From positions 930,001-994,000 of the forward strand of contig JAHLKF010000006.1 of NCBI GenBank assembly GCA_025558075.1: a stretch of DNA of 64,000 nt, read 5' to 3'. Below the pieces are notes generated by a model. It worked only from the letters and a program-made list of their open reading frames with translations. It had not been told where the DNA came from and made no database searches. A program made the position numbers and the translations under genes. Origin of the DNA: Gaertneriomyces semiglobifer. Lineage: Eukaryota > Chytridiomycota > Chytridiomycetes > Spizellomycetales > Spizellomycetaceae. Below are positions 16,058 through 46,875 of the stretch, in pieces (the stretch's first letter is position 1; each line of letters opens with the position of its first letter).

Positions 16058-19000
16058 CTACAGTTCAAACTCGGAACTGCTACTCTCGAGCTCCCGCAGT
16101 TTCGCCTTCTTTCGAGTCCTTCCTTTTTTTAGCCTACCACCCCGTACCGTTGCTTCCTGACGCCCCTCGCTTCGGCTCAAGTCGGGAGGACTTGGTAAAC
16201 TCCTTACACCGCTGGCAAACTCATCTCCGTGTGACGGTGCCTTCCTTTCCCTTTTAGGTGGACTTTCATCAACGGCACTATCGTAATCATGACTTCCATC
16301 GTGCCAACTATCGTCATCGGAATCCTCATCTACAGCCGCCCTTCGCTTGCCACGAACTCTCGCAGACTCTCGAAAGTGCAAGTCGTCCAGATTGTTTTCA
16401 AGCGAAACTTCGCTATCCGTTTCTCCTTCAGCGTCTTCCTCCTCGCCGCCCCACGCGCCCATGTTCCATTGATCTACCATGTCAACACTCGCATTATCAG
16501 CTGCAGGTGAGGCTGAATTACAGTTACAAGGAATGCCACGGGCAGCGCTTGCAACGCATTTTCTCACATCGGCAACGCCACTAGCACACTTCCAAACCAA
16601 ACTCCCAGCCTCATTGAAAAGTTTGGCGTTTCTCTCACATAACTCAAGATCTTCTAACACGCCTTCCACCGTGCGGTAAAATCCGGCCCTCAAACGCGTA
16701 CTAATCAGATCGAAATACCGCGGTGCCCCCACAGTGCCCAAGTATGTTGGATACTCGTCGTAAGGAGGAGCGTGCAGAAATAATGCCAAATTTTCATTCA
16801 TTGAATGTGAATGCAGAACCTTGAGAAGTAGGTCGCTCAGAGAGGTTGGCAACGACGGCGTACTGCGCGCAGACTTTGGACGGTAAAGTTCCCAAGGCGA
16901 GAAAGAGTCCATGCCTCCGTCATCCCAGCGGACACTTATGTTAGCCCACATATCGTCGACGGTTAACATGGGGCCTTTGCCGTTTCTCGATTTGTTTCTG
17001 CCGACTTGACAAACAACGCCCTCAAACAAGCCTTCTTCGTACATTGCGGCGCATCGATCCCCAACAACCCATCCCTCGCACATGCCCCGCTTCCACTCCC
17101 AAAAAGGGATCAAAAACTCGGGTCCGTCGAAATGCCAATAGTGGAGCTTTATAATGTCTTTACGACCGCTGACCTTGACCTCTCTAAGGTCCAATTCGGT
17201 CAATTTGCCATATATGGTCCAATCAGACTGGCCAGATTCACGGAGCACTGATACTACCGCTTCGTCAAATTCCCACACACCCACCCAGACCACCACGCTT
17301 GCCTTGCTATCGTTTGCGATCGGAGGCACGTATTCTACGCGTTCAACGCGACCAAAAACTACCGGTCCACGCTCTTCATCAACGTCAAATATTAATTTCA
17401 TCTCGGCCCTATCCGCAAACTCTTGGTGACCACGTTGAATGTACACAACCCAATCCCGCATCTGTGGCAAAAAAGTCATCTGACGAGATATGGACGAGGA
17501 GGTGCAAACAACCCACGGATCCGGAGTTGTGATTTCCGGAAGGATCGCAGGAAGGACGAATGATGGCTTGTAAGACTTCAATTTCCCGACCCCAAAGATA
17601 TTTATACCGGTGCCGGATAACGTCTTTCTAACCTTCGGTTTATTTTGAAGTTTCTGCTTCCGCCTGGGTGCACGATCACTACCGTGCAATGCTGTGTTAC
17701 GACCATAGTCGCTATCGACGACGCTATCATCGTCATCAGCCTTTCGCGATCGTTTGCGAGGACTCGAAATTCGCTCTGCTTCGTCTTCACTTTCCGAAAA
17801 CAAATCGACGGTGTCCCCGGCACTTTGACTTTCAGTTTCACTATCACTCCTGACTACCCTTTTCCGCTTCCCATTCTTGGAAATCATCCGACCCAAGCCG
17901 CTAGGCCCCGCACTTGCCAATTCCAGATCCATGTCGCTATCGCGTTCTTTGGAAGCTCGTGAACGCAGAGACCTCGCGGGTGACGGTTCACCATCTGGAC
18001 GCCCCGTGTCAGAGCTAAGACTACGTCGTTTCCGGCGTCGCATGGACAATGATTTCGCCGCTCTCGGTTCGTCGTCTGACTCTGACAGTGCAGTCCGCCG
18101 GCCCCTCCCGGAGCGTGATCGGAGCGACTTTGCAGGCGATGGCTCATCATCCGAAAAGTCGATATCTAGTGACAAGCTACGTTCCCTCTGCCGTCGCTTA
18201 CGCAACGGCCTTGAAGGCGAAGCACTGAGGTTGATTTGGGCATCCTCGTCGTCTTCTTCTGCAAGGTTAAACTGGTCAATCTCAGCGTCGTGACCAAATG
18301 AGCGGCTTCTATTTCTTCGTCGCGACTTTGAGGTAGCCTCCTCGTCACCAGAGACGTAGTCCTCATCGTCTTCCTCGTAGTCACTTTCACTCCTAATTTC
18401 ATCCATGTTTCCTTCGTCCAAAACATAATCCCCGTCGTCTTCGTCGGCGTGATCCAATTCAACCACGACCGGCTCTTCCCAAAACGCATCATCATCAATG
18501 GCACTTTCAACTTGTTTACGAGCCTGTTTGCGCATTTTTGTCCACACGGGATCTCGCTCGCTCTGGCCGCCGTCTGCTACAGGATCGTCAAACAATGAAT
18601 GCAGAACCGTAGGCTGAACCGGTGCCAACCCTTTCCCAATGCCATACGTCTCGACATGCTTTGCCCAGCCATCCAGTAGGAAATATGGAGTTTGCCTGGA
18701 GTCAACTAAGCCGGCTCCCACGCCGGTTGGCACCTCCCATGGCGGACAATTGTAGGTCGTGTCAATCAGCCAATTACTCACGCTGCGCGCGTTGTCGCCA
18801 TTATGCGCACTCCATATGTTAAAGGCATTCAAACCCACCGCAGGTTGAGTTAAGGCAGGAGATAAATGAACATTCACAACTGTTCCACTAGTACCGGTCA
18901 AGGCGATATCTGTCCCACTGAAGGCGGCTAACGCTGACGTGCTCCCTGAGACATCCGTAGTAACAGTGCCAGGGGTGGCACTGGAGCCAACATCGTCTGT

Positions 19001-21130
19001 TTCGCGGATCACGCTCCAGTCTGACAAGAAATATTGCTCATAAGGTGTCCCACATGCTGGCGAAGCATTGCCCTCCCCGAAACTCCTTGGTGAGTGTACT
19101 GTCGGCTCGAACCCAAAGAAAACGCACTCCCCAAGCTCATTAACACCTGCAATTCGCCCATCTTGCGACCAGCTTGCGTCGAGCCATTTGTATGGGTTAT
19201 CATTGGCATCCGACCCAGTGGCGACAACATTCGAGTTTGGAGTTGAGTTTAGCGTTGAAATGTCAATTTCTAAAGCCGATGCCTCAGCAACCCCATTAAT
19301 GATACCAGGCGGTCCTATATTTGTAGTAACGTGGGGGAATGCATTGTTGGGGCTTAGCAGCTCCTTCAGCTTGATACCCGAAACAACATCCCAGACAATG
19401 ATTCTGCCGTCGTAAGATGCCGAAAGCACGATTCGCGAGTCAGTAGGATGAGCATCCAAGACGTAGATAACGGCTGTGTGGTCTGTTAAAGTGTGCAATA
19501 AGCTACCGTCGACAGCCGAATGGACGCGCACCACACCGTGGAGTATTTTGTCCACACAGGCGGTGACCACTCGCTGATCATCGCAAGTGAACGCTACAGC
19601 GGTAATTCCGCTCAAATCTTCGTCTATGTTTGATTCCATGCCACCTGTTCCCGAAACAGAAGCCAACGCGTTTATGTCTGCGGATCTAGTTTCATCTTCC
19701 ATCGTTGTGGTCGAACTCGAAGTTACGGGAGTTTCATCTTCCAAAGCCATGCCTTGCCATCGCCCGGCAGCAAGGCTCCCATCGAGCTTTTCGTACTTCC
19801 AGACTTTAGCAGTTCCATCGATGCATCCGCTGACGAACATTTCATGCGTCCATGACCATTTAATCTCCCGAATGGTGATCCCTGTTCTTCTCTTCTTCTT
19901 CGTACGACTTCCGACGGGCGGCAATAAAAGTGACGAACCATCCAGTTGGGTGTGCAGCGAAATCCTTGGCACGTCGCGACCTGATGCACTGGCAGGCCGC
20001 GCTGATAGTCGTTCGGCAGTGCTGCCACGCTCTATAATCGCATCAATGCTATTATCCTGCAGATCGTTCCAGTCGATCCTGTGGACCCAGCATAGGCCAT
20101 CCGTCCCTCCAACAGTGAACCACCGACCCGTCGCAGCGAACCCAGCAGTTACAACTTTATCCCCACGCTTTTCACTAGTATTCAGAACTATCGGCGGCGT
20201 TTCAGTAAAAGACAAATGTCCATTGTGATTGACAGACGACTGATAAATGCGAGTCTTGCCATCCTTGCAGGCAGCCAGTAGTAGCAGAGTATTGTCAGAG
20301 GACGACGGAGAGAAACATACCCGGCTGATATCTTTGCCGACGGCTAGAGAAGCGACCGGATACCAATCTGAGGTATTCCATACTGTTACCCTCTGATCTC
20401 CCCCTGCAGCGGCCAAGTATTTATTGTTGTCACTTAAGCACATATCGAGGATCACATTAACTTCTGGCGCGCCGCCAATAGCATTGCTGTTGTATGTCGA
20501 GTGGCCTCGCAAAGACTTGACGAGCCACCCGGAGGAGCGGTCTGCTGGACAAGACCAGACTTTGACAATCCCGTCATCAGCCCCAGTTATAAAGTGCGAG
20601 GACGTCTTGTCCCAAAAGGCGGTATACGGTGCGCATTGGTGACCACGGATCACGGAGTTCGGTTGGAGTCTGGTATAAATAAAGGTATTGAGGGCGGGAT
20701 GAAGTGACACAAAATGCGGCCGTCGGCCAAGGGATCGGTCCAAAATACATCGACTGATGTTCAGGGATTCAGTCCGTCTTTTGAGTGTCGTCTGTTCTCC
20801 GAAGCGCAATCCGAGAAGAGATGAACTGGAAGTAATCATCGTAATCGCACGAAGTAGATTCGGCAGCGACCGACCGGTGACGGTTGGGTAGGAGCGAACG
20901 AGCTCGTTGTAAGTACATGGGTGTTGCTGTCCGGTATAGTCCAATCGCGTGGGTAGGCACTCGCCGTGCGAACGTTCAAGATCTTCACGGAGGGACTTGT
21001 ATGTGCGTTGGAACCGGCTGCAGCCCTCGAAGAAGCGGGATATTATGAACATCAGCTCTACAGCGGTAGAAATAAACACGGACAAAAGAAATGGACAGAG
21101 TAAGGGCAAAAGGTCGTCGGAATCTACCAT
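16058..21130 (-). CDS. BRWD/PHIP-like WD40-bromodomain chromatin protein
   Basis: A single open frame of 1690 residues with no intron, unlike its neighbours. The N-terminus (FIISRFFEG and YTGQQHPCTYNELV) matches the helical start of BRWD/PHIP. WD40 repeats follow from about residue 150 to 640 (RGHQCAPYTAFWDK, DGIVKVWSC, DGRIIVWDV). Acidic and basic low-complexity stretches fill the middle. Near 1330-1410 is a segment like the crypto-Tudor module (FWEWKRGMCEGWVVGD), then a bromodomain at about 1425-1530 (YFDLISTRL, ERNAKLFNEAGS). The Asn of the NAKLFN motif, which contacts acetyl-lysine, is kept, but the usual Pro-Met-Asp loop is altered. The tail is Lys/Ser/Glu-rich. The protein likely binds modified histones and may recruit a CUL4 ligase as in animals; that is inferred. 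Confidence 0.88.
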   Translation of the reverse strand: MVDSDDLLPLLCPFLLSVFISTAVELMFIISRFFEGCSRFQRTYKSLREDLERSHGECLPTRLDYTGQQHPCTYNELVRSYPTVTGRSLPNLLRAITMITSSSSLLGLRFGEQTTLKRRTESLNISRCILDRSLGRRPHFVSLHPALNTFIYTRLQPNSVIRGHQCAPYTAFWDKTSSHFITGADDGIVKVWSCPADRSSGWLVKSLRGHSTYNSNAIGGAPEVNVILDMCLSDNNKYLAAAGGDQRVTVWNTSDWYPVASLAVGKDISRVCFSPSSSDNTLLLLAACKDGKTRIYQSSVNHNGHLSFTETPPIVLNTSEKRGDKVVTAGFAATGRWFTVGGTDGLCWVHRIDWNDLQDNSIDAIIERGSTAERLSARPASASGRDVPRISLHTQLDGSSLLLPPVGSRTKKKRRTGITIREIKWSWTHEMFVSGCIDGTAKVWKYEKLDGSLAAGRWQGMALEDETPVTSSSTTTMEDETRSADINALASVSGTGGMESNIDEDLSGITAVAFTCDDQRVVTACVDKILHGVVRVHSAVDGSLLHTLTDHTAVIYVLDAHPTDSRIVLSASYDGRIIVWDVVSGIKLKELLSPNNAFPHVTTNIGPPGIINGVAEASALEIDISTLNSTPNSNVVATGSDANDNPYKWLDASWSQDGRIAGVNELGECVFFGFEPTVHSPRSFGEGNASPACGTPYEQYFLSDWSVIRETDDVGSSATPGTVTTDVSGSTSALAAFSGTDIALTGTSGTVVNVHLSPALTQPAVGLNAFNIWSAHNGDNARSVSNWLIDTTYNCPPWEVPTGVGAGLVDSRQTPYFLLDGWAKHVETYGIGKGLAPVQPTVLHSLFDDPVADGGQSERDPVWTKMRKQARKQVESAIDDDAFWEEPVVVELDHADEDDGDYVLDEGNMDEIRSESDYEEDDEDYVSGDEEATSKSRRRNRSRSFGHDAEIDQFNLAEEDDEDAQINLSASPSRPLRKRRQRERSLSLDIDFSDDEPSPAKSLRSRSGRGRRTALSESDDEPRAAKSLSMRRRKRRSLSSDTGRPDGEPSPARSLRSRASKERDSDMDLELASAGPSGLGRMISKNGKRKRVVRSDSETESQSAGDTVDLFSESEDEAERISSPRKRSRKADDDDSVVDSDYGRNTALHGSDRAPRRKQKLQNKPKVRKTLSGTGINIFGVGKLKSYKPSFVLPAILPEITTPDPWVVCTSSSISRQMTFLPQMRDWVVYIQRGHQEFADRAEMKLIFDVDEERGPVVFGRVERVEYVPPIANDSKASVVVWVGVWEFDEAVVSVLRESGQSDWTIYGKLTELDLREVKVSGRKDIIKLHYWHFDGPEFLIPFWEWKRGMCEGWVVGDRCAAMYEEGLFEGVVCQVGRNKSRNGKGPMLTVDDMWANISVRWDDGGMDSFSPWELYRPKSARSTPSLPTSLSDLLLKVLHSHSMNENLALFLHAPPYDEYPTYLGTVGAPRYFDLISTRLRAGFYRTVEGVLEDLELCERNAKLFNEAGSLVWKCASGVADVRKCVASAARGIPCNCNSASPAADNASVDMVDQWNMGAWGGEEEDAEGETDSEVSLENNLDDLHFRESARVRGKRRAAVDEDSDDDSWHDGSHDYDSAVDESPPKRERKAPSHGDEFASGVRSLPSPPDLSRSEGRQEATVRGGRLKKGRTRKKAKLRELESSSSEFEL

Positions 21131-22138
21131 TAGACAGAGCTCACAAACGTATGATTACCTCTCTCTGCTGTATCCATTCCCAGATTTCCAATGCTATCGA
21201 TATCCATTCTGGGTTATATCAAGCCAGCCGGAAATGAAGTCTGCGGAGGGTATACACTGCAGCCAGAATGACTGAGATAGCAGATGCTTTCCAGCAACGT
21301 GGTCGTCGTCGACTCTTTCTCTCTCTCTCGCTCTCGCCCTCGCCTCTCTCACGGTTTTCTTTTGATGGGTTGCCGATGACCTCGAACGAGGGCTCAAGGA
21401 ATATTTGGGCGCGACGGTGTCCCGCATAAATGACCGGCGTTGCGTGACTGTGCCAAAGAAAACGGTGACTGTGCCGCCATGACAATCGACGCTTTTGTTC
21501 GAATGTTTTGGGCGTTTTTGAAGAAACTGGCGGCGTATTTTCAATTGTCGGGTCTGCGTAGGGACTGCAAACGAGGCCGGAAGCAACGGTTGTGTACTGA
21601 CTGCGTCCGCAGCACCGACTTTATTGCTGTGGTGACCATCAGGCCTCCGTTCCGCAGAACAGTTAATGTGATGTATATCAAAGATGGACTGCATGCAGCC
21701 ATAGCCAATTTTTGAGCGGATTTTGATTTTCGCAGCGAGCGTTGGCCAAAACTCTGTGGCGCTCGCATGGCTCATCTCCGCGGATTAAATCGTATATTAT
21801 GCTGCTGCCCTGCAAAGCCTATCCTGCGTACATACACAGCGCTCGTACACCTAACTATGGCATACACCACTACATTCCACTGTGCTTGTTCTCGGTAGAC
21901 ATACTCCTCAGCTGCCCTCAATCAATTCAACGCATACCCACTATGTCCCAATTGAGCGTACGACTCAACGGCCGCGATGACTGTGCGTCTATCGATAACA
22001 AAGTGGCGAGACGATTTGCCCACAAACGACAAGTTGCAGATGCAAAGCGTTCAACGGCCATTAGCGGCATCAGTCAAGGCAGGAACAGCAAGCCAGCGAC
22101 GATAAGGACTACGTTGAGGTTTGACAGAGGCAGTCACG
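21131..22138. promoter_or_regulatory. Divergent intergenic region between BRWD-like gene and MRE11
   Basis: About 1 kb between two outward-facing genes. A pyrimidine-rich CT tract runs at about 21313-21350. No reading frame here has support from splice sites or domains. It should hold both promoters. Confidence 0.45.
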
Positions 22139-30699: not shown

Positions 30700-32049
30700 T
30701 CAAACTGCATTGTCAAGCATTTCATTCTCTGATGCCGAAAGGTCATCTGGTTCTTCCGGTTCGCTGTCTATGATATCATCATCATTGTCGTCTTTCTTCG
30801 TGAGAAAAGCACTCAGCGCCTTATCTCAGAAATAGGCCATGTCAAACTCGAAAGGGAAAAGAATGGAAGTACTTCAAGTTACACTCACGCTATTCATGTG
30901 CCATGCGTGCACTCGCTGTGTCTTGAAAACTCGCTTGAGCTTGTCATCACAGAAAAAATAGCGGCGGTCCTTAGGATCCTGAAGGTTGTTCGCCTTTATA
31001 TATATCCACAGCTGACGGACAACCTGAGGTCGGGACATTTCCGTGGCACCCAGGACATCTGCTAAGGCTGGGCTCAAGAACAGGGGTCGCATGAAAGGGT
31101 TGTTTTTCCGCTCCTTGGTATCGCGCTTCTCCTTTACTTTCTGAGATTTAGGTGGCCGTACTTGCGTTTGGTCATCTGCTGGCCTACTGCTGTCCGCACT
31201 GGACGAGTTTCCACCAACGATATCATCCTTGCTGATAAGATGTTTGGATAATATCTTGTTCATAGTGAACATGTGCACCCTAGCACCGGGTCCTAATACA
31301 GGCTGCAAACCCTCATCGAGAACAATGTAACGCCTATCGGATGGATCCTGTAGACCCTTCGATTTGACATATTCCCATATGCGTTTGACTACTTCTGGTC
31401 GTGACATTTCGCTGGCGCCCATGAGCTCTGCCAATGCAGCGCTCAGCACCAGAGGCTGCGTAAAGCCGGAGGCACGGCCAGACGAAGTGGATGACGACCT
31501 GGTCGCACGTTTTTTAGGCTTCGAGGTCGAGGCCGACCTCGCGTTCCTGGTACGCCGAACCCCGTTCTCTTCTTCTTGTAAACGACGGGCCAGTTCAGCG
31601 TCACCTTCGGTGGATGGGTCTGTGACGCCTACCTCCTCGTCAGAGGAATATATGAACTCGCTAGATTTGACTTTCTTACTCCTGGTCCCACGGTTGGTTG
31701 CAGTACTTTTCCGCTTTTTTGATGAAGCAACTTCCTTTGGTGTCTCTGTGCTGGTATGTGGTGATGTCGCAGCCGTGGTAGGCTGCTGTGCGACTGCAGT
31801 GTCATCGTGGTTGTGATCGTCATCATCGTCTTCTGATGGTAGATCATTCAGCAATTCTACTATAAGGGTATCCATCTCCACTCTCCATTGTGAAAGATCC
31901 ACATTGAACTCTTTCTCAAGTTGTTTTCTAACACTTCGTGCAGTCGTCTTATCGAGGTCTGCTGATTCCAAAATCTGCTGTATCCGAGGGACGTATTGCT
32001 GAAGCGCTTCAGCGCTCTCAACCTTTGGCGACACCACAACGTCGGCCAT
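30700..32049 (-). CDS. DEK_C plus two SWIB/MDM2 domains, chromatin-associated
   Basis: Two exons: 32049-30889 and 30819-30700, giving 426 residues. The N-terminal 60 residues fit a DEK_C-like helical domain (TARSVRKQLEKEFNVDLSQW). A long acidic and basic Lys-Arg linker follows. Two SWIB domains come next, each beginning with a PL.LSxALAxxxGAxEMSRP pattern (about residues 205-285 and 315-390) and containing DPxDRRY. Two SWIB copies occur in the plant and fungal relatives of yeast UAF30/TRI1. UAF30 acts in RNA polymerase I upstream activation and SWIB proteins join remodelling complexes; which applies here cannot be told. The last exon adds an acidic tail. Without splicing the frame would end four codons after the second SWIB. 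Confidence 0.85.
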
Positions 32050-34239
<2,190 letters not shown>

Positions 34240-34496: not shown

Positions 34497-37174
34497 ATGT
34501 CCGAGTTCAAAGATAATTTCACTACAGAAATGCTTCCTGGGGGACAAGGACAACCTGACCAGTCCGAGAGTCCACGGAGCTCCCTGACTTCGTGGTTGCG
34601 AACTGCTGAACATCATGGGCAGGGGGACCACAGTAGAAAGCGTAGCTTTGGATACGATTTGAACGAGGACTCGAAACTTACCACTATGTCGCCAAAGGAA
34701 CAACGAGGCTTACCCGTCGGTGTGAAAAGGAAACTCAATGACGCCCGAGAGATCTATGTAGAGCTTCCGAACAAAGGACGACGTACGTCTCAATGCGCAA
34801 CAAGTGCGACAGTGCCGAGCCTGCAAGTGGACAGCGAGAATATCGCGGATGCCCGGACGGTCCCTGGCAGCAAAGACCCCTGCGGAAGCAGGGGTCGAAA
34901 GGATGCTAAACTTGTAAGCATTTAGTTGCGCCTTACATCACTCATGCTCTGACCGCACTCTCCGCCAGTCTACCAGCCGAAATGGCCTTCGGCAGGCGTG
35001 CTTGAGTTTTCCCAGCAGTACATCCGATGGGCAAGGAATTTCAACGCGAGACTCTCCACAGACTCAACTAACGTTCCAAGCAACCGGGTCGCCAATCAAT
35101 ATGCTTCGCAGGCCAGCCAACGACCTCTGCGCCCAAGTTGAGCCGTTCACGAAGCAATTGCCAAATTTGAAGGAGCTACCCCTGGGTGCCGATCTTAAGG
35201 AAAGCGCAATGCGCAGGCTCACGATCAACGAAGCACTAGATCTGCTGAGCGTAGTGGACTTCATACGTACCTTTGCTGAGCCCGCATTCATGATCAGTCA
35301 AAAGGAAAGCGTCAAATATTCCTTTGGTAAGTCCATTTCACTCTAATCCATGATATGCCTAGCTCATTTTCAGTTAAGGCATGATCGAAACTGCGCTGTA
35401 CGCATTACCCACACAGTTTGGCTGCATCCAAGAAACATATGCCTTGCTAGTGAGATGCCTCTGCGATGAATCAGTCGAAGCTGAGAACGCGACTGCCATG
35501 GTCGTTAGCATGTTGCCAGAAAACTCCGAGCTTAAGCGATGGTTTCAAGATCACGAAATACCAGCCATCCCGCCGTCTGTTCACGTTTCTACCCTCAAAA
35601 CCTTAGTAGACACTATCGTCGCCGGCCCAAAATTCAGGAACTTTATAAAAGCAACAAAGGATACTTTGTCAGAAATGCGTGCACAGAAATGGTCATCTGA
35701 CGTGCTCAAAAAAGAGCTTCGCCATCAGATAGTTAATCTCAACAGCGATATTGCAAGCGCTGACGAAGGGATACGCGACCTGGATAAACAATTGGAATGT
35801 CTGTTGTCAGCGGAGACCCGCTCGCACGAGGAGCAGCAAAACGACGGTTACGAGGACACTGCCGCACGTCGAGCGATTCGCAGGCTATTGAGCAGACACA
35901 AGGTTGACGAAACGAAAAGGGCTGTAGGAACATGCAGGATGGAGGTGGCGCAATCAACGAAAAAACGAAATGCGCTGATAAGTCAGCTTGCGAAATGTGA
36001 GAAACAATTAGCGGAGGCCGAAGCAGAAGACTTGACGAGAAGAGCGAGGCACGATAAACTTAAGGCTATGTTGAGTGAAAGCCGGCTCTTAGGGCAAGAT
36101 CGTTTTGGGAGACTATATTGGTGGTGTCACATCCGGGGCCATGACCCAATGGCAGATGGCCACGCGATGGACGCTTCTAGATCACTGCCAGATGACTCCG
36201 CATGTGGCGTACTGGTGGAAGAGGTTCAGTACACTTTCGACGGCGCTGATAGTGGTACAGGTTATGATGACCGTGGTGAAGCCAAAGAGGAAGACGCTGC
36301 TCCAATGCACCCAAAGTGCTTCAGCAAGTGGTATCTCGTGGACGGGTATAACAGTTTGGTGAATGTCTATCGCACATTGAGCAGCTCCGGACTTCTAGAG
36401 CGCGACTTGAGGGCCGAAATACAACGAGTGCTGGCCTGCTACGGAATCAGTGTCGATCCTAAATCCAAAGGTCCGCTGAAGAGTGCCAGTGCTCAAGCAT
36501 CGCGCTGGATGTCGCAGGCCATGGGAGCTTTCGCTGAATGGGCTAGCGCTCGCAATGAAGAATTGGAGGCTCCCCCGTCAGAGCATGGCAATTACTGGGA
36601 TATACAACGCAAACTGATGGTTGAAGACGTGCGCTGCTTGGCCGTTGCTTTTGAATCGGAGGAGTTAAAAAGCTTTGCGGATGACCAAGAGTCCACTGAG
36701 GCGGGCGTGGTCCTGCCTCAGGCTGCATTTTGTGCCCGCCTCATCAAAGACGTAGTGGCGCATCCGCAACTCTTACACATTGACACCGTCCAGCGGCTGG
36801 ATGGCATCAAGATTCATGCCAGCCTTCATAGGTGGAGCTTGGACGCATTAAAGGAAATATCCAGGAAGAATGCGGTTGATCCAATTGCAATATCTGAACC
36901 ACAAGAGGTTATGCAGACCTGCGTGGGTGGCTCTCACTCCGGAATTCGTGATTTGAGTAGTGGGACGGAACCCGTCGTGACAGCAAAGAAGGATGCTGTG
37001 ACCGATGCAATAGCTCATTATGAGCGAAGGACACGCTCAGGTCGTCTAATCAGCCAGGGCGCAATTAGTAGGCAGCAGTCAGGGGCGACTTCCGCATTTT
37101 GGGGCCAAGCAGAACCACCGCTGAACGCACGACGTTCTCATCGGATAAGCGGCAGGAATTTGAAACCATCTTGA
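34497..37174 (+). CDS. DDT/WHIM-domain protein, probable ISWI-type remodeller subunit
   Basis: Three exons: 34497-34913, 34969-35326, 35379-37174, giving 856 residues. A disordered N-terminal 180 residues is followed by a DDT-like helical segment (LTINEALDLLSVVDFIRTFAEP). Helical WHIM-type sequence continues through about residue 500, including a coiled-coil stretch (LDKQLECLLSAETR). The segment SRLLGQDRFGRLYWWC matches the WSD/WHIM3 signature in which a glycine, Asp-Arg and aromatic pair follow a helix. These motifs occur together in ACF1/BAZ- and Itc1-like partners of ISWI ATPases, which set nucleosome spacing. No PHD finger or bromodomain is seen. The start exon is weakly constrained, and the 35379 acceptor was chosen by phase. 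Confidence 0.72.
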
Positions 37175-39894: not shown

Positions 39895-41079
39895 CTATTT
39901 GGACTTGCAAAGCTGTCCAGCAATATGATTTTCTTTCTGTTCCCACTTATCTAAAGCTTCAGTCTGCTTCAAGTTACAATACGGCTCCCATGTGTCGCCT
40001 TCTTCCCCATAGCCCTCCCAGCGGACTAGGTATTCGATACGCCTGCCTTTACGTCGCTCGTCAAGGATTGTCTCAATGACATAATGCCCTTCCTCAAGCT
40101 CTTCAACATCGTCAGTGTCCGTGAGGTTTTCCACCACCTCCGCTGTGCCGTTTATCCGTGCTCGCTTTCGCAGCCTGTTCGGGTCCTCCGATATGCGCTT
40201 GCGTGAAATAGACTCTGCTATGGTCATGCTAGGAGCGCATTTCGGTATGTACTTTCGCGGAACATGGCCATGGTGGAGCGCTCTATGGTATTTTTGAAAT
40301 TCGCACAAAGTGTGTTCCATATCAATGGGGGTCATTCGTAAGTGTAAATCAGAGGGAAGTGCGGCGTTTACCCGTCTGGTCAACTGGATGATAACCTTGT
40401 CAACGTCGCCTTCGCCCTCGCCCAAGCCGAGGAGATGCAAACCTTTCAATGCACCCGGCCCTGGAGAAATGAACTCTTCATCGGCAGGAATAGCGTTGTA
40501 CATGACGAGGTCTTGCGTTGCTTGGTATGCATGAAATCGTCCAACACCAAAAAATTCTTTAAGCACCGAATGCATTTCCCTGGCGGTGGTGGTGGCGGTA
40601 CGGCCTAGGCTTTTGGCGTATTGTTGAGAAAGCTCCCAATTATCTCTCAAGCAATTCATGAGTTTTCCAAAAGGCATCGAACTCTGAAAAGCTGAAGTTC
40701 TCCAAGTTCTTGAACCAGCGTGCTTTTCATTTTCCCATTTGTTGATCATCTCCAGGGCAGTATCCAGATCGCTAACATAACCTAACATTTCATTAAACTT
40801 GGCATTGCTGATGAAGCGGTGAGTGATCACATTCCAGAGATACCAAGGATCCGTCACGCAAGTACCAGCGAACACCTTTCGCAAAACCACACTATTATTA
40901 TCGTCCTCCCTCCGTATATTGCAAAAACGGTAGTTGGCAAGGATACTGTCGTCTGTCCACGGCGGTGCTGCTCCAGATTGTTTTTTGATAGCAATCAGAT
41001 GCCGTTCAGAGATATATTTCAGAAGCAAATCGTAAGCCTTCAGTTTGGAATCGGCTTTGCTCGGCTTACGCACCGTCAT
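39895..41079 (-). CDS. Chromodomain fused to 5-hmdU-kinase-helical/aGPT-Pplase-like domain
   Basis: A single exon of 394 residues. The N-terminal 270 residues begin YISERHLIAI (22-31), then PWTDDSILANYRFCNIRRE (40-58), the signature I associate with the helical domain of phage 5-hydroxymethyl-dU DNA kinases and the alpha-glutamyl/putrescinyl-thymine pyrophosphorylase clades. Those enzymes act in DNA base hypermodification. The C-terminus is a chromodomain (329-380: HYVIETILD, YLVRWEGYG, TWEPYCNL) with the aromatic cage kept as Tyr333, Trp354 and Tyr357, so methyl-lysine reading is likely. A basic patch (ISRKRISEDPNRLRKRARI) may be a nuclear localisation signal. The catalytic state of the N-terminal fold is unknown. 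The last 25 or so codons lie in CpG-poor DNA. Start is ATG 41079; an upstream GTG frame is ignored. Confidence 0.75.
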   Translation of the reverse strand: MTVRKPSKADSKLKAYDLLLKYISERHLIAIKKQSGAAPPWTDDSILANYRFCNIRREDDNNSVVLRKVFAGTCVTDPWYLWNVITHRFISNAKFNEMLGYVSDLDTALEMINKWENEKHAGSRTWRTSAFQSSMPFGKLMNCLRDNWELSQQYAKSLGRTATTTAREMHSVLKEFFGVGRFHAYQATQDLVMYNAIPADEEFISPGPGALKGLHLLGLGEGEGDVDKVIIQLTRRVNAALPSDLHLRMTPIDMEHTLCEFQKYHRALHHGHVPRKYIPKCAPSMTIAESISRKRISEDPNRLRKRARINGTAEVVENLTDTDDVEELEEGHYVIETILDERRKGRRIEYLVRWEGYGEEGDTWEPYCNLKQTEALDKWEQKENHIAGQLCKSK

Positions 41080-41828: not shown

Positions 41829-43237
41829 TCACAGCTCACACGTAACCACTCTACAGCTGACCTTTAGTAGTTCCTCTCCTATCTCTTTCAACTCGCCATT
41901 TCGGCGAGAAAGTTGCATGACCTTTTGTCGCAACAGCCCAAGCTCGTCATCTTCACCTTGCTTAGCCGCCAAGCGCCCAAGACCGCTTGTCAATCTCTGC
42001 TCCACCAAGCTCTCCAAGGCTGAAGGGCGTGGCGGAACCGGAGGTGAGGAGCTCGCATCCTGTTTCGTTTGCTGGCCATCCGTAACGTAGCGTTTGAATT
42101 GGGGGGGTGCAACCGAATCAACGTTGGCGTCCATTAGTCCAGGGGCTTGCAAGAGCACTTGAACATTCGTAATTGGCCCTGCATGTTGAGTGAAAACCCG
42201 TATGGCCTGTCTGGAAACGGTGTCCCATACGATGGCTTTCCCGTCTTCTGAACCGCTGACTAGTAAACTGCCATCCATACTCAACGACATACCAGATACG
42301 CATGCCGTATGGCTATTCATTTCGGACGAGTATTTTGCCGCATCGGCAACCGTTCGTACGGGTAGGGCGTTACACAAATTCGATTGGTAAATGGTTCCAG
42401 TGCTCGTTCCGCAATACAAACGAGTTTCAGTTGAATCAACCGTTGAGCATGTCAGAGGTTTAGGGTACAATAGCGTCAAGAGGTTCTGCGGAGTCGTATC
42501 CCATATCTTACAGGTTCGGTCCAAAGATGTTGTATATATGCGTACGGAAGAACACAGAGTTTTGGAAAGTGTCAATGAAGTAATCGGAAGGGTATGCCCG
42601 GATAACGAGTTGCGGGGCGTTGGGGGTGCCCCGGTAGAAGTTGGGGTTAGTACGGCGGAAAACATCCACATGTGTATAGTTGAATCTTGTCCAACTGTGA
42701 TGAACGCATGGTCGTCAACCGTAAAAGCAATTGCGGTTACTTGTTTGTAATGTGCATCAAATGTGGCCCGGAGTTCGCCGGTTGCCATCTAAGGGAACTG
42801 AATAAGAATTCGAAAGCAAAAGCCATGATGGGTAGATGCCCACTCACATGCCATACGTATAGTGTGCCGCTCATACCACCACCTATACACCACTCCCCAC
42901 TATTACTGACAGCCAGAGCACTTATTTTTTCTAATAATGGCATTTTAACTGCCATATTACTCTAAGGAGTGGAACGGGGATTAGGCCCATCACCAAAGAA
43001 TTCACACAATCAGCGTTAAACCTTATTGAATCCCCAGTAGCCAATCAACGCTCCAATATTTTGAGCAGAAATAGCTCCCTTTTCGGACCAGATGCATGCT
43101 CGGTCCTTGACGAAGGCAATTGCGTCTGCATCACACTTGTTTCCCTTGAAAGAGCCCAGCACGGTTCCCGACCGCAAATTCCAGATATAACTCGTAGGGT
43201 CAGTAGACGAAGTCGAAATCACTATCTCTGCTGGCAT
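41829..43237 (-). CDS. IPI3: IPI3/WDR18, Rix1-complex WD40 protein
   Basis: Subunit of the Rix1-Ipi1-Ipi3 complex that drives ITS2 processing and late 60S assembly in the nucleus. Three exons: 43237-43022, 42961-42848, 42788-41829, giving 429 residues. WD40 repeats include SYIWNLRSGTVLGSFKG, GTLYVWHMATGELRATF (created by the exon 2/3 splice), DSTIHMWMF, RTCKIWDT and GKAIVWDTVSRQAIRVF. The C-terminal helix LLRQKVMQLSRRNGELKE is the conserved tail used for complex assembly. The donor of intron 1 (gtttaa) is weak but the phase and repeat continuity support it. The last residues may change if a further small exon exists. It is head to head with PRP16, 184 bp apart. Confidence 0.85.
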
Positions 43238-43421
43238 TATTGGTCGTTGCCTAGCAGAATTCCTAAATCGCACTAGCCAGAATTGCGATTATGTGTATCT
43301 TTGTAACATCAACCAAGACAAAAAAGAAGTAAACGCGCGCGCTTACCATTTTGCTGCCCGAGAGGGCGAGAAGGCTACCTACCAGCTATCGGAATCCGGA
43401 GCATTACAGGAGTGATTATCT
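43238..43421. promoter_or_regulatory. Bidirectional promoter IPI3/PRP16
   Basis: Only 184 bp separates the two outward-facing start codons. Alternating CG (cgcgcgcg) occurs near 43335. No TATA box is obvious. Both genes act in RNA maturation, so shared control is plausible. Confidence 0.45.
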
Positions 43422-46400
43422 ATGGCTACGAGGAAGAGAGATGCCGCTCCAGACGGCTTCGTTGCCGACGGTCGGCCAGACATTTTGGAAAGTGCTATCC
43501 CTAAAGCGGGAGGTCTTATGGTGAGGAACAAGAAACAGTCCGCGGCTAGTGGAGAACAGCATGTGTTTAAAGCTCCAGCACCGAAATCCTCAGTTTTAGG
43601 ATTGGATCGCCTAGCTGCTGAGAAAAGAGCGGACAGAGAAGCACGAGAGACGAATGCCAAAAGAATGCGGTTGGATACCTCAGATGAGGGGAGTCTTGCC
43701 TTGACCACGACATCTACTCGGCACTATCGCGAACGACGGATGGATACGCCTAGCAACACAGGTGGAGTTTCAAGTGAGGCATGGGAGAGGTTGGGTCAGC
43801 ATAAGAGAGAAAGAGATCGGTATAGAACTGGTGGATTAATTATGTCTTCCAATGATCGCGCCGGGGATCAGCGAGGCAACCAAACATCTAATAGCATCCC
43901 TGGAAGTGAATGGGAAATGACTCCCAGGCGATCAGAAGGAAACCAAACTCCGAGGAGGGAAGACCGTGGATCCAGTAGCCTACGTAAAGCTGCAGGGCAG
44001 TGGGACTTCGCTACTCCGCGAGCAATTGACCTCAGTCCATACGACGGCGATATACATCGACTACCCAATTCTGATTACGCTCAGTGGGAGGAAGAGCAAA
44101 CAAAACTTGACCGCGAATGGTATAATCTTGAAGAGGGAGGTGTCATGGATGAAGGGCATAATCAATATGCTGAATTTGACGACTATTACAAAAAGAAGGA
44201 AGAAGAGCTCGCCAAAAAACAAGTCAAACGCTTATCGGCGCGACAAGCGCAATTCAATCGCGATAATGATTTGTGGGAGACCAATCGGATGTTGACCAGC
44301 GGTGTGGTTCAGCGACGCGAAGTGGATACGGACTTTGATGATGATCAAGAAGGGAGGGTCCACGTACTCGTCCGCGATCTCAAACCACCCTTCTTGGATG
44401 GTAAGATTGTTTTTACTAAACAACTGGAAACAGTTCAGTCGGTTCGAGACCCGACGTCTGATATGGCGGTCGTGGCTCGCAAAGGAAGCATGCTTGTTAG
44501 AGAAAAGCGCGAACAGCAGGAGCGTGCTAAGGCTGCGAAGGCGCTAGATGTTGCTGGAACATCTTTGGGTAACATCATGGGCATAAGAAAAAAGGATGAG
44601 GAGGATACCAAGGTGGAGGACGAAGATGCCAAAGGAGAGTCTAAATTTGCATCACACTTGAAAGATCAATCAGATGCCGTTAGTGCGTTTGCAAGGTCTA
44701 AGACTCTTCGTGAACAACGAGAATTTTTACCGGTATTTTCCGTTCGCGAAGAACTTCTCCGAGTAGTTAGGGAGAATCAAATCATCATTATCGTTGGTGA
44801 AACCGGGTCTGGTAAGACGACCCAACTCACACAATATTTGCATGAGGATGGATATACGCGATATGGACGCATCGGTTGCACTCAACCTCGAAGAGTTGCT
44901 GCCATGTCCGTTGCGAAACGTGTCAGTGAAGAGATGGAATGCAAATTAGGATCCAAAGTGGGTTATGCGATTCGTTTTGAGGATTGCACTTCTGAAGAAA
45001 CGGTCATCAAGTACATGACCGACGGTGTTTTGTTGCGCGAGTGTTTGAACACGCCCGACTTAGACCAGTACAGTTGCATCGTCATGGACGAAGCACATGA
45101 ACGCGCACTCTATACTGACGTGCTGATGGGGTTGATCAAGCGAATTCTCACACGTCGAAGGGATATGAAACTCATTGTTACGTCTGCTACTATGAATGCT
45201 GAGAAATTCGCGAATTTTTTTGGAAATGCTGCGCTCTTTGATATCCCTGGAAGAACGTTCCCCGTTGATATAATGTTTAGCAAGAACCCCGTGGAGGACT
45301 ATGTCGATGGTGCAGTTAAGCAGGTCTTAGCCATCCATCTGTCTCATCCTCCCGGTGACATTTTGGTGTTCATGACCGGTCAGGAAGATATCGAGATCAC
45401 TTGTCAAGTTGTTGGAGAACGATTGGCACAATTGGACGACGCCGCCCCGTTGGCGATTTTGCCAATTTATTCTCAGTTGCCCGCAGATTTGCAAGCAAAG
45501 ATTTTTGAGCGAGCAACTAATAGTGCTCGCAAGGTCATTGTGGCGACTAATATTGCCGAAACGTCACTAACTGTTGACGGTATTATGTACGTTGTTGATA
45601 CGGGCTATAGCAAGCTCAAAGTCTACAATCCGAAGATTGGAATGGATGCCTTGCAAATTACGCCTATTAGTCAAGCGAATGCAAATCAGCGATCAGGGCG
45701 GGCAGGTCGCACAGGGGCTGGAACGTGCTACCGTTTATATACCGAGTCGGCGTACAGAAACGAAATGTTTCCGAACAACATTCCTGAGATCCAGAGGACG
45801 AATCTGGCCAATGTCGTGCTTTTGCTGAAGTCGCTCGGTGTGAAAAACACCTTGGAGTTCGACTTCATGGATCCGCCGCCACAGGATAATATTTTGAACT
45901 CTATGTATCAGCTTTGGATTTTGGGCGCTTTGGACAACACTGGGGAGTTAACAAGTCTGGGTCGCAAAATGGTCGAGTTCCCATTGGACCCGTCGCTTTC
46001 AAAAATGCTTTTAACTGCCGAAGGGCTTCACTGTACTGAAGAGGTGCTGACAATAGTCTCAATGTTATCCGTGCCGACTGTTTTCTACCGACCTAAAGAA
46101 CGTGCAGAAGAAAGTGATGCGGCGAGAGAGAGATTCTTTGTTGGTGAAAGCGACCACCTTACTTTGCTGCACGTCTACACTCAATGGAAGGTGCATGGCT
46201 ATAGAGACGGTTGGTGTACAGAGCACTTTGTCCATCCGAAGGCGATGAGAAAGGCTCGAGAAGTGCGGACGCAGCTGCTTGACATCATGAAATCTCAGAA
46301 GATGACTCTTTCTTCATGTGGAAGCAATTGGGACATCGTGCGAAAATGTATCTGCTCAGCTTACTTTCATCAGTCTGCCAGGCTAAAGGGCATTGGTGAA

Positions 46401-46875
46401 TACGTGAACATGCGAAATGGCATGCCTTGCCACCTCCATCCTACGAGTGCCCTTTACGGGAGGGGTTTCACACCAGATTACATTGTGTACCATGAACTGG
46501 TGATGACGTCGAAGGAGTTCATGCAATGCGTCACAGCTGTTGATGCTCACTGGCTAGCCGAGCTTGGCCCAATGTTCTTCAGTATCAAAGAGAAAAACTT
46601 TAATCATATGGTACGCGCGTTGCTCTCATCTTTTGCATAGCACAAATCTACTTGCTAACTGGTACCAACAGGAAAAGCGGCGGCAGGATCGCGAAGACCT
46701 TAGATCCATGGAGGACGAGCTACGAGTGGCCTCTGAAAAAAGAGCTTTAGAGGAAAGGGAGTCGATCAGCGTTCCTACTCCCCGATCCAGAATAGCCACG
46801 CCGGGCACAATGACCCCGGGCCTCAATCGGCGTGAACCAGGTACTCCAGCACCCCGACGGCGTTTCGGCTTGTAA
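43422..46875 (+). CDS. PRP16: Splicing DEAH-box ATPase PRP16 (DHX38)
   Basis: RNA-dependent ATPase that remodels the spliceosome after the first transesterification. Two exons: 43422-46610 and 46672-46875, giving 1130 residues. The N-terminal 430 residues are charged and include the family segment DWETNRML-like ([14 protein letters not shown]). The RecA core shows [10 protein letters not shown] (motif I), [15 protein letters not shown] (Ia), MDEAHER (DEAH, II), [10 protein letters not shown] (III), [11 protein letters not shown] (IV), [13 protein letters not shown] (V) and [12 protein letters not shown] (VI). Winged-helix, ratchet and OB-fold parts follow ([34 protein letters not shown]). The last exon adds a coiled and Pro/Thr-rich tail ending PAPRRRFGL. 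Confidence 0.95.

Follow-up and report, generated by a model that had tools for sequence, protein, structure and literature searches.

In phages, genes for the HMUDK_hel domain have a kinase, an amino acid:DNA transferase and a thymidylate synthase or dUMP hydroxymethylase as neighbours, which ties this domain family to DNA-base modification. Among chromatin proteins, HP1, Rhino and SUV39H1 carry chromodomains with an aromatic cage. A fusion of the two domains was reportedly described in basidiomycetes by Iyer and colleagues in 2013, in work said to have founded the base-modification prediction. Here, we analysed a window of 64,000 nucleotides from the chytrid Gaertneriomyces semiglobifer (contig JAHLKF010000006.1, positions 930,001 to 994,000), in which HMUDK_hel and a chromodomain are joined in one open reading frame (ORF). 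The initial annotation had placed both domains in a single frame at 39895..41079, and this proved exact: the ORF is intact and stays open from an ATG at 41079 through a stop codon ending at 39895 on the minus strand. Its product of 394 amino acids (aa) is a real, conserved and uncharacterised protein whose family link to DNA-base modification is sound. Its features are as follows, with residues counted from the ATG (the Pfam scan, numbered from an in-frame GTG, runs three higher).

39895..41079, minus strand: whole coding sequence, 394 aa, single open frame (ATG at 41079; full-length relative P0001, 396 aa)
40270..41037, minus strand: HMUDK_hel (PF18723), residues 15-270, all-helical, with a predicted fold like that of helix-hairpin-helix (HhH) glycosylases (Pfam; AlphaFold2 model; VIA-align 2)
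40507..40554, minus strand: motif FFGVGRFHAYQATQDL, residues 176-191 (F182 in 254/255 and D190 in 225/255 family sequences)
40453..40461, minus strand: GPG, residues 207-209, starting the next helix (helix 208-216; G207 and G209 in 255/255)
40282..40323, minus strand: C-terminal signature DMEHTLCEFQKYHR, residues 253-266 (C259 and E260 in 255/255, K263 in 253/255)
40156..40203, minus strand: basic stretch RKRISEDPNRLRKRAR, residues 293-308, which on reading the sequence looks like a putative bipartite nuclear localisation signal
39934..40083, minus strand: chromodomain (PF00385), residues 333-382, with cage Y333/W354/Y357 (Pfam; HP1 alpha sequence match; predicted fold)

The N-terminal region had been linked to two families, the helical domain of 5-hydroxymethyldeoxyuridine (5-hmdU) DNA kinases and the alpha-glutamyl/putrescinyl-thymine pyrophosphorylases (aGPT-Pplase). 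Membership in the former is borne out by Pfam (E 1.8e-34, 119.8 bits against a cut-off of 25), with almost the full profile matched (3-277 of 281). This applies to the helical domain and not to the kinase, since no kinase family was matched in the ORF at E <= 1. For the second assignment there was no profile match: aGPT-Pplase is absent among the three families matched at E <= 1, in a library that may or may not include it. Of the nine fold matches in BFVD at E <= 0.001, two carry its name. Besides, Pfam gave no ADDT (PF18724) match at E <= 1, a family contained in the library, and NCBIfam returned nothing at E <= 0.1. PHROGs placed the protein with phrog_2396 (function unknown; E 4.4e-33), and the single PADLOC match was weak and lay inside the chromodomain.

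For the chromodomain, the Pfam match spans the entire profile (1-53 of 53; E 2.8e-11, 43.6 bits, cut-off 25.1) and HP1 alpha is the top hit by sequence in the PDB (E 8.3e-10). The likeness to HP1, Rhino and SUV39H1 extends to sequence, predicted fold and aromatic cage, yet the window protein has neither a chromoshadow nor a SET domain in the Pfam scan. Its cage, assigned from what we take to be the cage positions of HP1, is intact at Tyr333, Trp354 and Tyr357, just as first numbered. The same aromatic-Trp-Tyr cage was found in 43 of 44 chromodomains from 42 proteins (35 Tyr and 8 Phe at the first position, with one row cut short; Trp and Tyr in 44/44). The closest protein among those found, P0001 from Gaertneriomyces sp. 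JEL0708 (a genus of the order Spizellomycetales), matches 99% of the query at 90% identity. With a full-length relative of this kind the fusion is not due to chance. Between these two proteins, 238/253 positions are identical in HMUDK_hel and 55/58 in the chromodomain, compared to 43/58 in the linker, i.e. both domains are conserved more than the linker.

Our best explanation, to which we give an even chance, is a chromatin-tethered reader or modifier of modified bases, in which a base-flipping HMUDK_hel domain of phage or prokaryotic descent is held at methyl-lysine chromatin. The chromodomain would bind histone H3 at a methylated lysine, in all likelihood lysine 9 (H3K9me). The HhH base-flipping fold of HMUDK_hel would then grip a pyrimidine of the neighbouring DNA that is hydroxymethylated, or otherwise modified, at C5, and the gripped base might either be kept as a mark or be acted on. 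The domain itself may have been drawn from the phage and bacterial gene pool, where it often lies beside 5-hmdU DNA kinases, and recruited to heterochromatin. A histone-guided base-modification effector had been proposed from the outset; the fusion, the cage and the family link of that proposal stand, whereas chromatin targeting and action on modified bases stand as inference.

Structure prediction, suggested early on as a check, yielded compact and confident models for both domains, with a chromodomain fold for the one and, for HMUDK_hel, a fold resembling HhH DNA glycosylases and PUGT (AlphaFold2 model, structure comparison). In this model, the motif FFGVGRFHAYQATQDL may correspond to the HhH hairpin. 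Conservation was assessed over 255 sequences (12 chytrid, 35 mushroom-type, 81 bacterial, 127 phage or unassigned; the window protein and near-duplicates included), namely those of 256 domain matches that passed an 80% coverage cut. R57, D60, G207, G209, C259 and E260 are invariant, and all of these, plus D190 and K263, are present in the window protein. A protein of such a fold could be a repair enzyme of the DNA glycosylase type, cutting oxidised or modified bases out of heterochromatin, which we consider very unlikely. HhH-GPD (PF00730) did not match the window protein at E <= 1, although the genome's own HhH-GPD proteins were found (three matches, one under the cut-off; here as below, counts from six-frame profile searches of the 20.86 Mb assembly in 66 contigs are lower bounds). 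Moreover, GPG sits, by eye against L130 and L131, where HhH-GPD glycosylases have their catalytic Asp, and at that place this genome's HhH-GPD proteins read VDTH or VDGN. This apparent replacement, in a position where both glycines are invariant, argues against a plain glycosylase.

How, then, does the fungal protein compare with the phage copies? A tblastn search with the fungal protein at E <= 0.01 matched 186 phage records, and none of these matches covered more than 80% of the query. A P-loop kinase gene is directly followed by a solo HMUDK_hel gene in Ab18, Sonora and MP1412, with ADDT-type and thymidylate synthase genes near; the Ab18 kinase scores under the HMUDK_HMUD1 (PF18748) cut-off. 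PaMx11 shares this gene order: its HMUDK_hel match falls on gp50, and gp46 is PUGT. The solo genes (Ab18 gp13, MP1412 gene 14 and Sonora gene 42, assigned by Pfam, and PaMx11 gp50, assigned by tblastn) share the signature motifs with the window protein, yet they lack a chromodomain, lie beside a kinase gene (in PaMx11, a gene at the same place) and show ∼24-30% identity to it. Likewise, PUGT itself (PDB 8z2m/8z2n) is similar to HMUDK_hel in predicted fold, yet has 8-12% identity and went unmatched in the profile scan. Its Ab18 relative falls with the ADDT proteins, against four of which HMUDK_hel reached a non-significant E of 0.17 in a profile comparison. A P-loop kinase of this kind was present within the fetched stretch in 12 of 23 IMG/VR loci (near-duplicates included), and scanning viral contigs with a bacterial/mushroom alignment gave nine loci. 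Of note, two phage genes directly before an HMUDK_hel gene are labelled 'terminase small subunit' (L002:5414-5983, L129:5218-5787); in L002, the copy scanned, this label is probably wrong, as Pfam shows a P-loop-kinase-like protein.

In bacteria, at least 537 of 588 contig stretches were confirmed, and the best 80 were kept. Since the ranking was by similarity to a query with a fused kinase, the set favours kinase fusions. A dTMP-kinase-like domain is fused to the helical domain, which is homologous to that of the window protein, in 42 of the 80 loci and has an ORF of its own in 12; the stretches fetched for the other 26 showed no such kinase (two of these, L094 and L121, had no helical-domain ORF called either; some loci end at a contig end). 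The arrangements in phages and bacteria would be compatible with the window protein being one half of a two-protein 5-hydroxymethylpyrimidine DNA kinase, with a P-loop kinase from elsewhere phosphorylating the base flipped out at heterochromatin. However, PF18748 had no match in this genome (nor in the control genomes) and dTMP kinase (PF02223) a single one, and given the 26 loci without such a kinase in the stretch, the domain seems not to need a kinase in cis. We therefore regard a split kinase as quite unlikely.

The gene neighbourhoods of the bacterial copies, grouped by single-linkage clustering with each family named from one scanned member, are recurrent. Per 80 loci, they comprise an M78/IrrE-like peptidase (62), a 274-aa protein without Pfam match (61), a helix-turn-helix (HTH) protein (44), a 98-aa protein without match (38), a thymidylate synthase-like protein (38), a dCTP-deaminase-like protein (25), a ThsB-type TIR protein (17), Nmad2 (14) and a radical SAM protein (11), and a MazG plus MazG_C protein lies downstream in other loci (two scanned). 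The recurring cluster (L049-L128) thus unites dTMP-kinase-like and HMUDK_hel domains with M78, HTH, the 274-aa family and thymidylate synthase-like, MazG, MazG_C or radical SAM partners. Nmad2 and ThsB-type TIR genes near some of its copies indicate phage defence. The DefensePredictor report names 5-hydroxymethyluracil kinase and thymidylate synthase among newly validated anti-phage defence domains (PMC13092281). Unlike the fungal gene, the bacterial loci with their often fused kinase resemble, by domain names alone, the gene content of this validated system (PMC13092281). The thymidylate synthase-like, MazG and dCTP deaminase-like partners might also suggest an enzyme acting on free nucleotides, with the chromodomain only localising it. 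Yet such an enzyme would presumably gain little from a chromodomain, and the phage copies sit in clusters known from DNA hypermodification, so that we deem this highly improbable.

A chromatin-tethered reader or modifier would not be restricted to Gaertneriomyces. Of 7,995 candidates scored with a chytrid-based profile, the best 120 of 123 matches included, among those listed, 11 named chytrid proteins from Gaertneriomyces, Geranomyces, Spizellomyces, Chytriomyces and Obelidium. Four of them have a precomputed Pfam chromodomain (P0001, P0007, P0008, P0010), P0011 has a partial one by a custom profile, and six have none. A search with the fusion protein P0023 returned 36 proteins including the query, all with both domains; as candidates were limited to ∼374-1,190 aa and solo-domain proteins excluded by design, this is not a measure of fusion frequency. 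Sources are named for 28 of the 36 and are all, as we take the names, Agaricomycetes. When 10 mushroom-type fusions were rescanned, each scored 316-382 bits to HMUDK_hel, compared to 120 for the window protein. The HMUDK_hel-chromodomain architecture is hence common and already precomputed in public databases; being found in many mushroom-forming fungi, it is not special to this genome. Open-licence literature listings contained no title on this protein; being nameless, it was not searched for by name.

The mushroom fusions (e.g. Agaricus bisporus P0141, Serpula lacrymans P0150, Auricularia subglabra P0122) have the same two domains in the same order and keep the cage, yet their helical domain groups with bacteria and most of them have lost D190 and R88. 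In numbers, D190 is Asp in 12/12 chytrid, 5/35 mushroom-type, 81/81 bacterial and 127/127 phage or unassigned sequences, and R88 is Arg in 12/12, 1/35, 1/81 (Lys in 80) and 126/127, respectively (the 35 being the 36 fusions less one). R266 is Arg in 8/12, 34/35, 81/81 and 124/127. Loss of D190 in 30 and of R88 in 34 of the 35 mushroom-type copies, including P0124 and P0141, suggests altered or lost activity there. By extension, the window protein might be a non-catalytic reader or an evolutionary relic in decay, with a chromodomain and a second domain that does no more than bind DNA. We think this unlikely: both residues are kept in all 12 chytrid copies (near-duplicates included), and the 94% identity to P0001 in the domain versus 74% in the linker shows that constraint continues.

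As for the evolution of the fusion, trees were built from 79, 48 or 45 of the 255 rows, thinned by identity and limited per group. The careful tree, of 48 rows, unites the chytrids in one clade (100/100) and places the mushroom-type copies with bacteria and one unassigned row (95/97); the mushroom-type clade in it is weak (82/70). With this set, a single fungal clade was rejected (p 0.029). Once three long phage rows had been removed (45 rows), a single fungal clade had p 0.169, and the mushroom-type rows no longer formed one clade. The quick 79-row tree also set chytrids and mushrooms apart, yet a joined tree overlooked by the free search was better (approximately unbiased test, p-AU 0.817). 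Two independent fusions in chytrids and mushrooms are a possibility raised by these sequences. A bolder, tentative version, which we hold to be rather unlikely, is that on two independent occasions fungi acquired a base-modification helper domain from prokaryotes or phages and fused it to a methyl-lysine reader, giving a genome-defence device that would mark or sense unusual bases on H3K9-methylated, transposon-rich DNA. The mushroom source would then be a bacterial lineage with phage-defence-like operons and the chytrid source a separate one. Either way, the window protein is, on its sequence, of a known fusion type; it belongs to a divergent clade of chytrid copies, which retain pocket residues that are gone from most of the mushroom-type ones.

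Within the genome, a six-frame search with PF18723 reported one match, the window ORF (120.7 bits). A domain scan of its surroundings in the window gave these neighbours.

41832-42788, minus strand: WD40 repeat ORF
43416-46637, plus strand: DEAD/DEAH helicase ORF
30877-32070, minus strand: SWIB plus DEK_C ORF

An origin of the window gene from contamination or foreign DNA was rejected, because neighbouring ORFs bear eukaryotic nuclear-type domains and a second isolate has the gene. Further chromatin-type ORFs nearby are a BRWD-like WD40-bromodomain ORF (16061-21154, minus strand) and one with a sub-threshold WSD match (35378-37171, plus strand).

Genome-wide, profile searches found 17 SET matches and two for chromoshadow, the better of which is an HP1-type protein with a chromodomain; Pre-SET had no match here or in the control genomes. 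Co-occurring TET/JBP genes had been suggested as a check, and PF12851 matched neither in this genome nor in the control genomes. C5-cytosine methyltransferase gave 16 matches in about eleven places. A scan in the frame of the match confirmed six such proteins, and L037, scanned in another frame, gave nothing. The genome with these roughly eleven places (L031-L038) is a small chytrid one, and the six confirmed proteins have no other Pfam domain at E <= 0.001. According to a review, 5-methylcytosine (5mC) has been largely replaced by N6-methyladenine (6mA) in early-diverging fungi including Chytridiomycota (PMC13297926), which weighs against a 5mC-derived substrate here.

In summary, the present work confirms HMUDK_hel and a chromodomain in one ORF of a chytrid, and suggests that silenced chromatin may be a place where some fungi deal with unusual DNA bases. 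The idea is directly testable, as the modelled domains are compact and relatives exist in cultivated mushrooms, e.g. Agaricus bisporus. If true, histone methylation in fungi would be linked with a DNA base that is not 5mC, for which we know of no worked example, and phage or anti-phage chemistry would have been reused for eukaryotic chromatin.
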